Positions 54,178-60,660 of a DNA stretch of 64,000 bases are shown piece by piece (the stretch's first letter is position 1; each line of letters opens with the position of its first letter). The position numbers were made by a program, and so were the translations under genes. The stretch is from Anderseniella sp. (lineage in GTDB: Bacteria; Pseudomonadota; Alphaproteobacteria; Rhizobiales; Aestuariivirgaceae). The DNA lies in assembly GCA_028289645.1 (NCBI GenBank), contig JANQOK010000007.1:1-64000 (forward strand), read 5' to 3'. The notes under the pieces were generated by a model that did not search any database, was not told the DNA's origin, and was given only the letters and a program-made list of their open reading frames with translations.

Positions 54178-54792
54178 GTGGTGCAGCTTCTGGTCCGCTC
54201 GCCCGGTCTCCGGCCTTTGATATCAACAGATCTCTTTGTACTTGCCTGCCCTTGGTCCGCGGCCGGCCAGGTTCAGGGTCCGAAGGCATTGCGGAGTCGG
54301 AGAGTAGGTTTGGCAGACAAGCAACCATCGAATTCAAATTCATCAAAAACCGGGGATTGCGACACCCATGCGGTGCTGACCACAGATCTATATGAGCGCG
54401 ATCAGATTCGCGCGCTGTTCATCATGCGATGTTACTTTTTGTCGTTCTCCAAGGCCGGCTGTGACGCATGGCAAACGGGACTTGAAACTGCAGTTGAAGC
54501 GTTCGGGGAGCATGATGGGCCCGGGGTTGCGTGGCAGTGTTTGAAGACGGTTCGAGCGATGCGAAAGTCGAGGAACAGTGTGTTTCAGTTCTGCAATCCG
54601 TTTTGCAAATGCTGCAAGGACCGGATGACCCAGAGCGAAGCCAATATTATGGATTGCATTTGCGCCATCCGTGGCGGCGAGGCAGGCAAGCTGCACCTGT
54701 CCTCCATGATGTTGTGCGAGGGAAACAACGACACGAATTTCCTCGCCTCCATCCGAGACCTTACCAGCGAGCTTGTCCGATTGCAGAAGTGA
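54178..54792 (+). CDS. Cysteine-rich hypothetical protein
   Basis: I do not recognise this protein. From GTG 54178 it would have 204 residues, but the N-terminal 45 look non-coding; a TTG at 54310 is an alternative start. The C-terminal 140 residues look real: a helical segment (ERDQIRALFIMRCYFLSFSKAGCDAWQTGLETAVEAFG), then a cysteine cluster (FQFCNPFCKCCKDRM, CICAIRGGEAGKLHL). The CxxxCxCC arrangement could bind metal. A possible promoter (TTGACC 54124, TTAATT 54147) lies upstream. It converges with the ABC transporter gene. Confidence 0.5.
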   Translation: MVQLLVRSPGLRPLISTDLFVLACPWSAAGQVQGPKALRSRRVGLADKQPSNSNSSKTGDCDTHAVLTTDLYERDQIRALFIMRCYFLSFSKAGCDAWQTGLETAVEAFGEHDGPGVAWQCLKTVRAMRKSRNSVFQFCNPFCKCCKDRMTQSEANIMDCICAIRGGEAGKLHLSSMMLCEGNNDTNFLASIRDLTSELVRLQK

Positions 54793-54892: not shown

Positions 54893-56611
54893 TCAGGCAG
54901 AGACTGTGTCTGCGCCGGCTATGCCAAGTTTCACCGTCTTCACCGGCTTGAGGGCTGCTGGTGGATGATGCGCCACGCATATGATGGTGGTTTTCGGAAG
55001 CAGAGCGCGCAGCACCCCGAACAGTTCGGCTTCCGCGTCGGGCCCCAGCGCACTGGTGGGTTCGTCAAGGATCAGCCATTTAGGCTTTGCCAGCAGGATA
55101 CGTGCGAACACCAGGCGCTGTTTTTCGCCCTCCGACAATCCTTCAAGTGCTGCCACTCCGTCCTGCTCCAGCACGTGTGAACGATGCTGCAAACCAACCT
55201 GCAGCAACACCGATGTCAACCTGTCCAAATCGACCGGCCGATCGTTGTCGGGATAGGTCAGCGCGGATGCAACTCCTTCGCCGAACAGGTACGGGTTCTG
55301 TGACGCAAAGAACATGGGTTGATCAGGCAGACTTATGCTGCCTTGCCCGTATGGCCAGATGCCGGCCAGCGCGCGCAGCAAGGTCGTCTTGCCAATGCCG
55401 GACGGCCCGCGCAGCCACACCCTCTCGCCGGCGGCAATGCTCAGATCATCTATGCAAACGATACTGCGTCCATCAGGTGTGAACAGCTTGAGGTCCGAAA
55501 CTTCAAGCCTGTCGGCGCCCGAGCGCCGCCGGTCAATCTCGCTTGGCACGTCTGGCATGCGGCCGGGATCGCCGAGCCGATCCAGCAAGCCGCCAAGACG
55601 GTCAGACACCGCAACGAAATTTGCAAGGTCGCGGTAGGAGAAGATGAACCAACTCAGCGTGGTGGTGACTCTGGAAAACGCGGATGCGAGCTGCATCAGT
55701 CCGCCAAGCGTCACTTCCCTGGCCAGATAAGCGGGCAAGGACAGGAAGATCGGGACCCTCAGAACGGTCTGGAAGTACGGTCGCGTGAACAGGCCGACAA
55801 TGAATTCACGGCCGATCAGGCGGCGCCAGTTGACGAGGATTTTCGAGAACCGGTCGTCGATCCGGTCCCGTTCAGCCGCCTCGCCGTTTGCAATGGCCAC
55901 TTCTGCCGCGTTGTCGCGCAATTGCACGAGCGAGTAGCGAAAGTCCGCCTCTCGTCTTTCGCGTTCGAACAGCAGCCCCTTCAGCGGCCAGCCGAGGACA
56001 TGGGTGAATATGCTCGACAGCAACACGTATATGAACGATGCCCAGACCAGGTAATGCGGGATGGATATGTTCAGGCCAAATGCCGAAAACTCCAGCGCAA
56101 AGGTGGACAGTGACCACAGAACCGTGACGTAGGAAAACAGGCCGATGATCCTGGTAAACAGATCCAGTGCCTCGCTCAGCAGGCCGGATACGAACAGACG
56201 GCAGTCTTCGGCTATGCGCTGGTCGGGATTTTCGAGGCCCTCCGGGGCAAGCCCTTCACGCAAATGCCAGTAGGACTTGTTGGCCAGCCAGAGGCTCAAT
56301 GCATGATCGGTAAGCCGCGTGCGCCATCTGATGATGATGAACTTGCGCACATAGTCAGAAACCAGGAAGCGTCCGGCGCTGAGTGCCGTAAGCGCAAAGA
56401 AGACACCAACCTGCTCGATGGCGACCGTCGCATCATACGCCTCCAGTGCATTGAAGAAATCGGCGTTCCAGGTGACAAAACGAAGCGCGATCCAGATGCT
56501 GAAAAGCTCCAGGCCGATTACAATTGCCAACAATCCGAGAGTTGCAGGTGCACCTGGACCTGACGCGGCGATCCGCGCCAGGTCCAGGATCCGGGCGAGT
56601 ACACGGCACAT
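54893..56611 (-). CDS. Single-chain ABC transporter of the YddA/SbmA/Rv1819c type
   Basis: The 572-residue protein fuses an SbmA/BacA-like membrane domain (about residues 20-330, including WNADFFNALEAYDATVAIEQVGVFF and SYWHLREG) to an ATPase with Walker A LRGPSGIGKTTLLRALAGIWPYG, signature LSEGEKQRLVFARIL and Walker B WLILDEPTSALG. Members of this family import peptides or, in Mycobacterium, cobalamin and bleomycin. It starts 6 bases after the TonB receptor stop, so receptor and transporter are translationally linked, which supports an import role for the receptor's ligand. Confidence 0.88.
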   Translation of the reverse strand: MCRVLARILDLARIAASGPGAPATLGLLAIVIGLELFSIWIALRFVTWNADFFNALEAYDATVAIEQVGVFFALTALSAGRFLVSDYVRKFIIIRWRTRLTDHALSLWLANKSYWHLREGLAPEGLENPDQRIAEDCRLFVSGLLSEALDLFTRIIGLFSYVTVLWSLSTFALEFSAFGLNISIPHYLVWASFIYVLLSSIFTHVLGWPLKGLLFERERREADFRYSLVQLRDNAAEVAIANGEAAERDRIDDRFSKILVNWRRLIGREFIVGLFTRPYFQTVLRVPIFLSLPAYLAREVTLGGLMQLASAFSRVTTTLSWFIFSYRDLANFVAVSDRLGGLLDRLGDPGRMPDVPSEIDRRRSGADRLEVSDLKLFTPDGRSIVCIDDLSIAAGERVWLRGPSGIGKTTLLRALAGIWPYGQGSISLPDQPMFFASQNPYLFGEGVASALTYPDNDRPVDLDRLTSVLLQVGLQHRSHVLEQDGVAALEGLSEGEKQRLVFARILLAKPKWLILDEPTSALGPDAEAELFGVLRALLPKTTIICVAHHPPAALKPVKTVKLGIAGADTVSA

Positions 56612-56617
56612 GTACTG

Positions 56618-58915
56618 TCAGAACAGCACGTTCAGGCTCGCGTGGAACGTTCTGCCCGGCCCGGTTTGCAACTCAATTGGGTTGGTTCTTGCCACTGCGT
56701 CGCTGGCTGTGCGGCCGAAGTTGGCGGCGCTGGCCTGGAAGTAGCGGGTGTCGAACACGTTCTTCACACCGAACCTAAAGATGGTGTTGTCCAGCGGCCG
56801 CCACTTTCCATGCAGGTCGAACACCGCATAGCCATCCGGGTTGAAATTGTTCGGATTGGAGTTTCGCTCCACGTCGGCTGCAAAGATGCCGATGGCTTCG
56901 AGGGTCAGATTTTGTTCAATGAACTCATAGCTGAGCCCGGCCACAACCTCCAGCGGCGGCGCGGTGTAGGGCGTCGTGGGTGACTCAGGGTTTACCTTCT
57001 GCACACCCTCCTGCCAGGTCAGGGAGATGTCGCCGCGCAACGCATCCGTGAACTGGTAGCCGGCAGTGGCTTCGATGCCCCACAGCTCGACGCTTGAGAG
57101 GTTGCGATAGGTGAAGTCATTTGTTCCGGGAATGTTGAAGAATGCCTGGATGAAGTCGGTGTAGTCAGCGTAGAAGCCGTTGATAGAAAAGAAACCGCGG
57201 CCGAACTTTCCGCGCAGGCCGATCTCATAATTGTCCACCGATTCCGGTCTCAGGTCAGGTGCCGGTATCAGATTGAAGAAGGTGCCCGGCAAGGATGTGT
57301 ACAACTGCTGCGCAGTCGGCATCTTGAAGCCCTGATTGAATGCCGCGTACAGGGAGTACTGGTCCGTCAGATCGAAGTTTCCGCCAACAGCAAACAGGAC
57401 CTTGCTTTTCGACACCTCAACCGGTTCCGATCCCACCACCGGCTGATAGTCAGGGTCGGGGCGCGGGTCGAGGTTGTAATAGGCGTGCCGCATACCCGGT
57501 GTGAGTTCGAAGCGGCCGCCGAGCAGTTCGATCTGATCCTGGATGTAGAAGTCAGCCCGGACCGTCGTGGCATTGGCAAAATTGAAACCGCCGCCTCGGG
57601 TCTCCGTCACGGTGTCCTGGGTCAAGTTTCGCACCACGTCGATGCGCTGATAGTCGGTGCGGGTGATGTCGCCATCGAAGCCCCATGTGACCGTATTTGG
57701 TATGCCGCCCGGGTCAAAGCGGGAGGTGAACTGGATGTCCAATTCACCAAACTTTTCCGCGAACGACAGGAAGTCTTCTTCGATAACATCGTCATCGTTG
57801 GCGAGCGTCTTGGTCTCAGTGCCGGTGCGTTCGTAGCCGCTCGGCGAGTAGCTCAACACCCACTTCACGTCGTCAATGAACGCTGTGCCCAGGCCCCATT
57901 GGTGTTCAAGCGCGAAGCGACCTCGGTACAAATCCAGCTTGCGGTCATAGTCGTCTACGACCACACCGGTTGGGTTTCCTGTAAAGGAGCTGAATTGCGG
58001 GCCGAGGACATTGTCGTACTGGACGTCAGTGACGCGGCTGAGATAGTCGGCAGACAGTTCAAACCGATGGTTGCTGAACGGTGTGAACACCAGCTTGCCC
58101 AGGCCACGAACGCTGCTCTTGTCCGTTGGATCAAGCTCATTACAGGGCGTTGCCCCGAAGTCGAGATTGCGCGGACAGCCATATATGCCGCCATCGGCAC
58201 GCGCCTTGCCGAACTTGGCTTCATTGGCATGAGTGTAAGCAATGCCGCCCAAGAAGCTCAGTGTCTCGGTCAGTTGCGAGGCGAACGTTGCCGCGGTGTT
58301 GATTTCATTGTCCAGACTGTCGAACGAGGTCTCGAGGTTGCCGCCCATGTCCCTTCCATCAAACAACACATCTTCAGGGTCGATGGTCTCAACCGCCACG
58401 ATGCCGCCCAGCGCGTCGGCTCCCCACAATACCGATCCGGGGCCGCGCACGATATCGGCCTGCTTGGTGAAGTTGAAATCGAAATAGTCCCGCGTACCGT
58501 CAATTATCCGCTCCGGGATGCGTGCACCATCCACCAACAACTGCACCCGGTTGCCGCCCACGCCGCGAATATTGAAGCCGCTGAATGTGTTGAACGGATC
58601 GGTGCCTGTCGTCTGGCGGATTACCTGCACGCCGGGTTCGTAGCGCACAAGCTCCTGAATGTCGTTGGAAAACCTGTCAGCCAGCTGCTCCTGGCCAATC
58701 ACCGTGATGTTGGCATTCACGTCCAGCGGCTTGCGTCCCTGGCGATCGCCGAAAATGGTGATCAATCCGAGCGAAATGCCATCACCTGTCGTGTCCTGTT
58801 GCACGACATCCTCATCCTCGCGCCCCTGAGTTTCAGCGTCCTGCGCATGAACAATGTTGACAGATGACAATAGTGTAGCGCCCGCCAGAATGGCGGTTGC
58901 AGATAAACGATTCAT
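56618..58915 (-). CDS. TonB-dependent outer membrane receptor (haem-receptor-like)
   Basis: The 765-residue receptor has a signal peptide (MNRLSATAILAGATLLSSVNIVHAQ), a plug domain (LDVNANITVIGQEQL, then NIRGVGGNRVQLLVDGARIPE and VRGPGSVLWGADALGGIV) and a beta-barrel ending in Phe. Overall it resembles haem/haemoglobin receptors, but the FRAP and NPNL boxes read FKMP and APDL and no His lies between them, so haem uptake is doubtful. It is the first gene of a two-gene operon with the YddA-like ABC transporter. An IRO-type box and a second palindrome lie upstream, pointing to iron control. Confidence 0.88.
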   Translation of the reverse strand: MNRLSATAILAGATLLSSVNIVHAQDAETQGREDEDVVQQDTTGDGISLGLITIFGDRQGRKPLDVNANITVIGQEQLADRFSNDIQELVRYEPGVQVIRQTTGTDPFNTFSGFNIRGVGGNRVQLLVDGARIPERIIDGTRDYFDFNFTKQADIVRGPGSVLWGADALGGIVAVETIDPEDVLFDGRDMGGNLETSFDSLDNEINTAATFASQLTETLSFLGGIAYTHANEAKFGKARADGGIYGCPRNLDFGATPCNELDPTDKSSVRGLGKLVFTPFSNHRFELSADYLSRVTDVQYDNVLGPQFSSFTGNPTGVVVDDYDRKLDLYRGRFALEHQWGLGTAFIDDVKWVLSYSPSGYERTGTETKTLANDDDVIEEDFLSFAEKFGELDIQFTSRFDPGGIPNTVTWGFDGDITRTDYQRIDVVRNLTQDTVTETRGGGFNFANATTVRADFYIQDQIELLGGRFELTPGMRHAYYNLDPRPDPDYQPVVGSEPVEVSKSKVLFAVGGNFDLTDQYSLYAAFNQGFKMPTAQQLYTSLPGTFFNLIPAPDLRPESVDNYEIGLRGKFGRGFFSINGFYADYTDFIQAFFNIPGTNDFTYRNLSSVELWGIEATAGYQFTDALRGDISLTWQEGVQKVNPESPTTPYTAPPLEVVAGLSYEFIEQNLTLEAIGIFAADVERNSNPNNFNPDGYAVFDLHGKWRPLDNTIFRFGVKNVFDTRYFQASAANFGRTASDAVARTNPIELQTGPGRTFHASLNVLF

Positions 58916-58986: not shown

Positions 58987-59004
58987 TTGATATTCGAATA
59001 TCAA
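58987..59004. promoter_or_regulatory. Perfect 18-bp palindrome upstream of the TonB receptor
   Basis: TTGATATTC-GAATATCAA is a perfect palindrome 72-89 bases upstream of the receptor start and 2 bases from the IRO-type box. It has TGA-N10-TCA spacing and does not match the Irr consensus; the regulator is unknown. Confidence 0.55.
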
Positions 59005-59005
59005 A

Positions 59006-59024
59006 GTTGACTATTTTAGTCAAC
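59006..59024. promoter_or_regulatory. Candidate RirA (IRO) box upstream of the TonB receptor
   Basis: GTTGACTA-TTT-TAGTCAAC is a perfect 19-bp palindrome containing TGA-N9-TCA, the iron-rhodo box recognised by RirA in Rhizobiales. It lies in the divergent region between the receptor and the cupredoxin gene and could act on either. Confidence 0.65.
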
Positions 59025-59152: not shown

Positions 59153-59653
59153 ATGATTTCAGATACACCGAGTTCAACGCGCCGCCAGGTGCTCAAAGCT
59201 GCCGTTGCCGTGGCATGTTGTGCCGGCGCGAAAATTGGCACGGCCGACGCCGCAGTGCCCACCACGGTCGACCAGATCACTGACCCGACTTCTACGGCGG
59301 CCCGGAACATGTTTCGGTTCGAGCCTGATTTCGTGAAGCTTCAACCGGGCGATGAACTGGTCTTCCTGAACAGCCGGTCACACCACACGGTCCACTCGGT
59401 TCCCGAGCTCTGGCCTGACGGTGTTCCCGCGGTCAGCATCGCACACCAGCCGGAGGCTTCCGTGCGCTTCGACAGGGAAGGGTACTATGGTTTCCGATGC
59501 CAGCGGCACGGTCAGTACGGCATGGTCATGCTGGTGGTGGTGGGGCGTCCATCCGGCGCTGACAAGGTACGCAAGGTGATCAACATTATGAAAGCCAAGA
59601 AACGCGAACGGGCCGGATTTACCAGGCTGCTGGACCAGCACGACCATTCATAG
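59153..59653 (+). CDS. Pseudoazurin-like blue copper protein
   Basis: The 166-residue protein has a twin-arginine-like signal (STRRQVLKAAVAVACCAGA) and a cupredoxin fold. Type 1 copper ligands are visible: His in SRSHHTVHSV and the C-terminal loop FRCQRHGQYGMVM giving Cys, His and Met with C-x2-H-x4-M spacing, as in pseudoazurin. It should be a periplasmic electron carrier. A charged C-terminal extension (KKRERAGFTRLLDQHDHS) is unusual. No copper nitrite or N2O reductase is nearby. It diverges from the TonB receptor gene and may share its iron-responsive region. Confidence 0.82.
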   Translation: MISDTPSSTRRQVLKAAVAVACCAGAKIGTADAAVPTTVDQITDPTSTAARNMFRFEPDFVKLQPGDELVFLNSRSHHTVHSVPELWPDGVPAVSIAHQPEASVRFDREGYYGFRCQRHGQYGMVMLVVVGRPSGADKVRKVINIMKAKKRERAGFTRLLDQHDHS

Positions 59654-60246: not shown

Positions 60247-60660
60247 TCACTCGGCGTCCTTTTCCAGGCGGACAATGATATCTACCCGGCTCACTTTCAT
60301 GCCGGCAGGCGTGGACGGCAGTCCGCTGACGGTGATCTGATCGTTCTCGATATCCATCAGTCGGCCTTCATCCTCCACGTAATAGTGATAGTGGTTGGAT
60401 GTATTGGTGTCGAAATATGACTTGTGGCCCTCAACAGCGACTTCTCTCAGCAAGCCAGCTTCGGTAAAAACGTTCAGCGTGTTGTAGATGGTCGCAAGCG
60501 ATACACGTATGCCTTCACTTACCGATTCAGAATGAAGCTGTTCTGCAGTTACATGACGATCGCCGTTTCCGAACAGCACGCCGCCAAGGGCCATGCGCGG
60601 TTTGGTTGGCCGGACGCCTGCGCTACGCAGTTTGATTTCCAAGTCTGTTGAACTCATCAT
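60247..60660 (-). CDS. irr: Iron response regulator Irr (Fur family)
   Basis: Irr is the haem-sensing Fur-family regulator of alphaproteobacteria; it is stable under iron limitation and controls haem synthesis and iron-storage genes. The 137-residue protein has the winged helix (VRPTKPRMALGGVLFGNGDRHVTAEQLHSE, then VSLATIYNTLNVFTEAGLL) and the Irr-specific histidine block FDTNTSNHYHYYVEDEGRLMDI in place of Fur metal sites and CxxC pairs. The N-terminal haem regulatory motif of Bradyrhizobium is absent, as in most Irr. The leftward gene is 137 bases downstream of the secreted hydrolase gene. Confidence 0.93.
   Translation of the reverse strand: MMSSTDLEIKLRSAGVRPTKPRMALGGVLFGNGDRHVTAEQLHSESVSEGIRVSLATIYNTLNVFTEAGLLREVAVEGHKSYFDTNTSNHYHYYVEDEGRLMDIENDQITVSGLPSTPAGMKVSRVDIIVRLEKDAE

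Follow-up and report, generated by a model that had tools for sequence, protein, structure and literature searches.

In a 64,000-nucleotide stretch of the genome of Anderseniella sp. (contig JANQOK010000007.1 of assembly GCA_028289645.1; this whole stretch is referred to as the window), a gene for a TonB-dependent receptor and a gene for a single-chain ATP-binding cassette (ABC) transporter lie next to each other on the minus strand, between positions 54893 and 58915. We propose that this pair is probably an iron-regulated operon for the uptake of haem (or of a closely related iron-porphyrin or haemoprotein), in which a transporter of the SbmA/Rv1819c type carries out the inner-membrane step without a binding protein. 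Haem is the leading substrate rather than an excluded one. Linkage evidence for the receptor half of this proposal is strong; that the ABC protein itself carries haem, and carries it inwards, is what we infer.

The receptor and the ABC protein

The receptor gene (56618..58915, minus strand, with its ATG at 58915) encodes 765 amino acids (aa), in which a Pfam scan found Plug and TonB barrel domains. With 324.1 bits the protein passes the cut-off of TIGR01786, the haemoglobin/transferrin/lactoferrin receptor family (323.75). Its top sequence match in the PDB is PhuR (8the, E 1.6e-52), and PhuR is also the top PDB fold for its AlphaFold model (pLDDT 86; E 3e-57, TM 0.81/0.87), the next receptor folds being those of TbpA, ChuA and ShuA. 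Based on these three lines of evidence we describe it as a PhuR-like member of the family, and RefSeq gives three of its plasmid orthologues the name haemoglobin/transferrin/lactoferrin receptor.

Haem receptors of the HmuR/HasR type are defined by FRAP and NPNL boxes with a histidine between them, together with a histidine in the plug. The window receptor falls outside this definition, having FKMP and APDL in place of the two boxes and zero histidines between them. The initial annotation had described exactly these residues, and this part of its reading stands, but its view of them as degenerate haem-receptor motifs does not. In an alignment of 54 homologous receptors, Met532 (the Met of FKMP) is unchanged in all 54, and FKMP is therefore not a product of decay in this protein. 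Cys247 and Cys258 are likewise invariant (54/54). Conserved histidines were observed at position 283 (85%), 338 (94%) and 407 (98%, the window protein having Asn here). Judged by the strand order of the model, FKMP and the two Cys residues would lie in loops on the extracellular side and the three histidine positions at periplasmic turns. Tentative candidates for haem ligands are the invariant, presumably extracellular Met532 by the old FRAP site, and His 283, 338 and 407.

The ABC gene (54893..56611, minus strand, 572 aa) encodes transmembrane and nucleotide-binding domains in one chain, an arrangement of the SbmA/BacA-Rv1819c-ABCD type. This chain holds PF06472 (ABC_membrane_2, 137 bits) and PF05992 (SbmA_BacA, 90 bits), over gathering score, together with PF00005 (ABC_tran, 72 bits), which is the make-up of an Rv1819c-type protein. 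Rv1819c (6tqe) is both its best PDB sequence match (E 2.2e-70) and the best fold for its AlphaFold model (mean pLDDT 89, TM 0.81), and ABCD4 is among the sequence and fold matches. An ABC protein of the SbmA/Rv1819c kind had been predicted from the start, and domains, sequence match and fold all bear this out. The SbmA equivalog NF008306 was not reached (82.6 bits against a cut-off of 492), and the RefSeq label for this SbmA/BacA-like branch is 'peptide transport'. Three residues, C137, E147 and R285, are kept in 95-98% of the clade to which the protein belongs and in 0/25 outside rows, these rows being other bacterial ABC proteins of the superfamily, Rv1819c itself not among them. The clade-specific Arg285, which lies in the membrane domain, might bind the haem propionates.

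Conservation of the pair and its operon partners

A spacer of 6 bp (56612..56617, minus strand) separates the receptor stop from the ABC start, as first annotated and as the coordinates of the open reading frames (ORFs) confirm, and translational coupling across it is likely. Short peptides of the window ABC protein, used as patterns in a genome_contigs scan, led to 68 loci; since the patterns were drawn from a single protein, this collection is not a census. At 56/68 loci a homologous receptor lies directly upstream of the ABC gene on the same strand, so the adjacency of the two genes is not due to chance, and this synteny agrees with the earlier suggestion that receptor and transporter form a functional unit. 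The gap between them is at most 106 bp at 39 of the 56 paired loci and 0.75-1.75 kb at 17, and most of these larger gaps hold genes for HemS-like and ChaN-like proteins. Twelve loci are unpaired. At five, all from Pseudomonas or Yersinia (L104, L105, L107, L109, L112), the ABC gene is accompanied by an M16 protease gene and a different receptor; at four more (L073, L086, L091, L093) a receptor-like ORF of another kind lies close by. Of the remaining three, two are contigs that open with the ABC gene (L077, L108) and one is a false match (L113).

The pairing was also observed among 150 sampled genomes of the order to which the window belongs, its own genome included. All eight genomes with the receptor at E<1e-80 carry the ABC protein at E<1e-150, and 36 more carry solely remoter members of the ABC superfamily. 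The mirror-tree correlation of receptor and ABC protein was 0.89 (54 pairs), a value that we do not use as proof because common ancestry alone yields a high r. In an unrooted tree of 88 ABC proteins, built by a quick method, the 63 proteins of the haem-operon group fall on one side of a branch with an SH-aLRT of 100, and the five M16-linked ABC proteins likewise group together (SH-aLRT 98). The conserved operon is carried by many Alphaproteobacteria and a few Betaproteobacteria.

The partners of the pair point to haem. For the 60 clade loci with contig room, we counted partner genes that share the strand of the ABC gene and lie no more than 2.5 kb from it: a HemS-like gene is present at 53, a ChaN-like gene at 44, both at 42 and at least one at 55. 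The five loci without either gene are L073, L086 and L091, where a PNPOx-type ORF that we read as HugZ-like lies nearby, L097, which has a ChaN-like gene farther upstream, and L046, from the nearest named relative of the window, which has no such gene. When the HemS-like profile was compared with the PDB, all 7 of its 7 matches were HemS, PhuS or haemin-degrading proteins (best E 4.3e-14); two of these entries carry the title 'putative heme/hemoglobin transport protein' and are presumably PhuS. The Pfam HemS domain was over gathering score in 5/5 scanned members. The ChaN-like profile found 2g5g first (E 2.2e-15), an entry entitled 'putative lipoprotein' which we take to be C. jejuni ChaN, and PF04187, whose cut-off is 27.7, gave 192.6 and 187.5 bits with the two members scanned. 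By profile, neither gene was found at the M16-linked loci (0/5) or in the 1.5 kb on either side of 22 further ABC genes of the superfamily, the exception among other ABC loci being one weak BLAST match (40.8 bits) at L024. RefSeq annotates the locus on the Paracoccus aminophilus plasmid pAMI4 as a haemoglobin/transferrin/lactoferrin receptor, an SbmA/BacA-like transporter, a ChuX/HutX family protein and a ChaN family lipoprotein. Its names at other orthologous loci are similar: receptor, SbmA/BacA-like or ABC transporter, hypothetical or ChuX/HutX protein, and ChaN.

At nine Shinella/Devosia loci (L060, L061, L067, L076, L079, L081, L084, L085, L101) a gene of the invasion-associated-locus-B family, so named from a Devosia plasmid annotation, was observed near the haem operon.

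Iron operator and promoter region

Upstream of the receptor gene there is an inverted repeat, GTTGACTA-TTT-TAGTCAAC (8+8; 59006..59024), which holds TGA-N9-TCA at 59007-59023 and resembles an IRO box, the iron operator bound by RirA, in the form of the consensus given in the available text of PMC6386902. With A/T outer flanks, a form settled after inspecting the promoters, TGA-N9-TCA occurs upstream of 34/54 receptors, the window included, against 0.72 expected from shuffled sequence. Control spacings of 5 to 13 gave one or two promoters each, but N6 gave nine, an excess that is probably due to tandem boxes. A strict palindrome filter retained 4/55 promoters (0.2 expected). The pair has a predicted operator of the RirA-bound type, and iron control of it, through RirA or another regulator, is likely, as the initial annotation had proposed. 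A genome-wide scan for the pattern returned the window's site as the sole perfect one; near-matches were rarer than in a reversed control (5 against 9), and therefore no wider regulon is shown in this genome. Among the five Rrf2 proteins of the genome the best RirA score is 87.2 against a cut-off of 193. An Rrf2-family regulator was observed beside hmuV in the separate hmu locus of this genome (L118:14104-14553), RirA being its best model at 65.1 bits (cut-off 193).

Several other elements lie around the pair. The gene for Irr, a haem/iron-responsive regulator of the Fur family (60247..60660, minus strand; NF045678 IrrA, 195.9 bits against a cut-off of 150), is a neighbour outside the operon and lies some 1.3 kb from the receptor gene on its upstream side. 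Beside the IRO-like box stands a perfect 18-bp palindrome, TTGATATTCGAATATCAA (58987..59004), which was not among the top repeats of 53 pair loci or of G149. A pseudoazurin-like cupredoxin, under its equivalog cut-off, is encoded divergently from the receptor (59153-59653, plus strand) and shares the promoter region with it. Convergent with the ABC gene is a 204-aa ORF (54178-54792, plus strand) without a Pfam match.

Function of the pair and relation to known systems

We propose that iron starvation would lift the repression of the operon. The PhuR-like receptor would then pass haem, or haem taken from a haemoprotein, through the outer membrane with energy from TonB, as its family, fold and neighbours suggest. 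Haem would be handed on to the ABC protein without a dedicated periplasmic binding protein encoded in the operon, and the transporter, presumably a homodimer, would move it into the cytoplasm, a direction suggested by the strict linkage and by the importer role of relatives such as Rv1819c. In most relatives the HemS-like and ChaN-like proteins of the operon may receive or process the haem in the cytoplasm; in this genome, speculatively, the HutX protein of the separate hmu locus might stand in for them.

A number of observations weigh against this reading. The receptor passes TIGR01786 by a margin of 0.35 bits, and since that family also takes in transferrin receptors, membership by itself is no proof of haem. 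TIGR01785, the haem/haemoglobin receptor model of the HmuR/ShuA type, was not reached (294.6 bits against a cut-off of 316.85). The histidines of PhuR in the plug region and near NPNL have no counterpart in the receptor, and in the alignment of 54 receptors a conserved His is absent from the plug and from the FRAP-NPNL loop. These missing canonical haem-ligand residues are the main structural argument against haem, and if haem iron is bound, it must be held otherwise than in PhuR or HasR. The window copy is also without HemS-like and ChaN-like genes beside the pair, and the HemS-like profile of the operon matched nothing in this genome, in a search run without a positive control. The genome's sole ChaN-family protein (contig C14) was considered as the operon type and rejected, as it belongs to another subfamily (identity of 25% to the first row and of 27% in the best BLAST match).

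The other haem genes of the genome count against it as well. It had been stated that hmuTUV-like genes are absent. This is true of the scanned part of the window (family scans of eight or nine proteins encoded between about 51 and 62 kb), and no HmuTUV-type set of binding protein, FecCD permease and ATPase lies at the pair itself, but the statement does not extend to the genome, which has a complete hmu locus on contig C8. Three of its genes score over cut-off: HutX with 169 bits against 110, a haem receptor with 501 bits for TIGR01785 against 316.85, and HmuV with 282.5 bits against 261. The binding-protein-like and FecCD-type permease genes both scored under the cut-offs of named models. The pair therefore adds to a standard haem route. 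HmuV is over its cut-off in 44/50 pair-bearing genomes tested (50 of 57 candidates), and in 52/150 genomes of the order sample, among them 5/8 of its pair genomes. On these counts we reject a simple replacement: the pair accompanies hmuTUV, and the ABC protein is no substitute for HmuTUV.

These data are the basis of the main rival explanation, in which haem from the receptor would reach HmuTUV in trans and cross the inner membrane there, while the linked ABC protein has another job, for example the export of haem, a porphyrin, or a haem-derived or scavenging molecule. The presence of HmuV in most pair genomes and of the hmu locus in this one agree with it, and the exporter-type fold leaves the direction of transport unfixed. 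We nevertheless consider this explanation unlikely, although it is the strongest of the alternatives: the ABC gene is tied to the receptor gene and to genes for cytoplasmic HemS-like and ChaN-like proteins, and PMC3603451 describes Rv1819c, the solved relative of the ABC protein, as transporting vitamin B12.

The initial annotation had favoured a siderophore, peptide or corrinoid as the substrate, a choice that the haem-handling partners, the PhuR fold and receptor models that stay under their cut-offs do not support. TonB receptors and SbmA-type transporters do take up siderophores and antimicrobial peptides in other systems. Such uptake here seems improbable, the siderophore-receptor model reaching 152.9 bits against a cut-off of 223.5 and the conserved partners being haem proteins. 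A corrinoid of the B12 type would fit Rv1819c as the best solved relative and ABCD4 among the matches, but we hold it to be very improbable and reject it. The BtuB models score far under their cut-offs (94 against 599.7 and 78.2 against 836), and a better BtuB-like receptor, though at 248 bits also under its cut-off, is encoded on contig C6 together with a binding-protein-like protein and an ATPase. No Rfam match, and hence no riboswitch, was found in 48-64 kb, and HemS and ChaN are haem families.

A TonB receptor adjoining a fused member of this ABC superfamily is a layout already known from FusA-FusD and yddA-yddB-pqqL, as far as the available text of PMC5095587, PMC3855560 and PMC6793856 describes them. 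A system of this type, taking iron-sulphur or another cofactor from an imported protein, is a very improbable explanation here, and we reject it: the known systems have an M16 protease, whereas the haem-operon clade has none in its conserved neighbourhood and carries HemS-like and ChaN-like proteins instead, and the M16-linked ABC proteins of Pseudomonas and Yersinia form their own group in the tree, with neighbours other than HemS and ChaN. The M16-type neighbour cluster occurs mainly at these five separate loci (the domain being confirmed by Pfam at three of them), with a distant member at L051 and L099. The five (L104, L105, L107, L109, L112) encode what we read as a sigma/anti-sigma-like pair, together with a TonB receptor, an ABC protein of this kind and an M16 protease, and represent a variant of the Fus layout with cell-surface signalling.

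Literature searches, with subscription papers mostly outside their coverage, did not find a published description of the haem-type operon. The Stenotrophomonas locus hemP-hemA-smlt0796-smlt0797 was rejected as a precedent, because its extra two proteins, predicted to be periplasmic, are without known relatives and dispensable for haemin use according to the available text of PMC9241770. As far as is known, and in part as set out in PMC12670364, Gram-negative haem uptake has a single inner-membrane solution, a TUV-type transporter with its binding protein. The conserved operon described here, with its iron operator, ties a receptor of a haem family to an exporter-fold ABC protein and two haem-handling proteins, usually alongside TUV. 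It is possible, though we put it forward as a tentative idea, that it represents a second general inner-membrane haem route in Gram-negatives, using a binding-protein-free importer of the SbmA/Rv1819c fold, its own PhuR-like receptor and haem ligands other than His/Tyr. Whether haem can be imported without a binding protein thereby becomes a testable question, and a poorly assigned SbmA/BacA-like branch gains a defined candidate substrate.

Compared with Rv1819c, SbmA/BacA and ABCD4, the window ABC protein has the same domain make-up and fold but differs in its tie to a TonB receptor and in its clade-specific C137, E147 and R285; we know of no linkage of those proteins to a TonB receptor. The closest resemblance on the receptor side is to the Phu and Hmu systems (PhuR-PhuSTUVW and HmuRSTUV), PhuR being nearest to the window receptor in both sequence and fold. 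A HemS/PhuS-like cytoplasmic protein is encoded in the operon of most relatives of the pair, as is a ChaN-like partner, and PhuW is a relative of ChaN. Unlike these systems, the receptor has neither the plug His nor that of the FRAP-NPNL loop, and the operon of the pair has no T-U-V genes, a single-chain ABC protein of the SbmA/Rv1819c type taking their place at the inner membrane.

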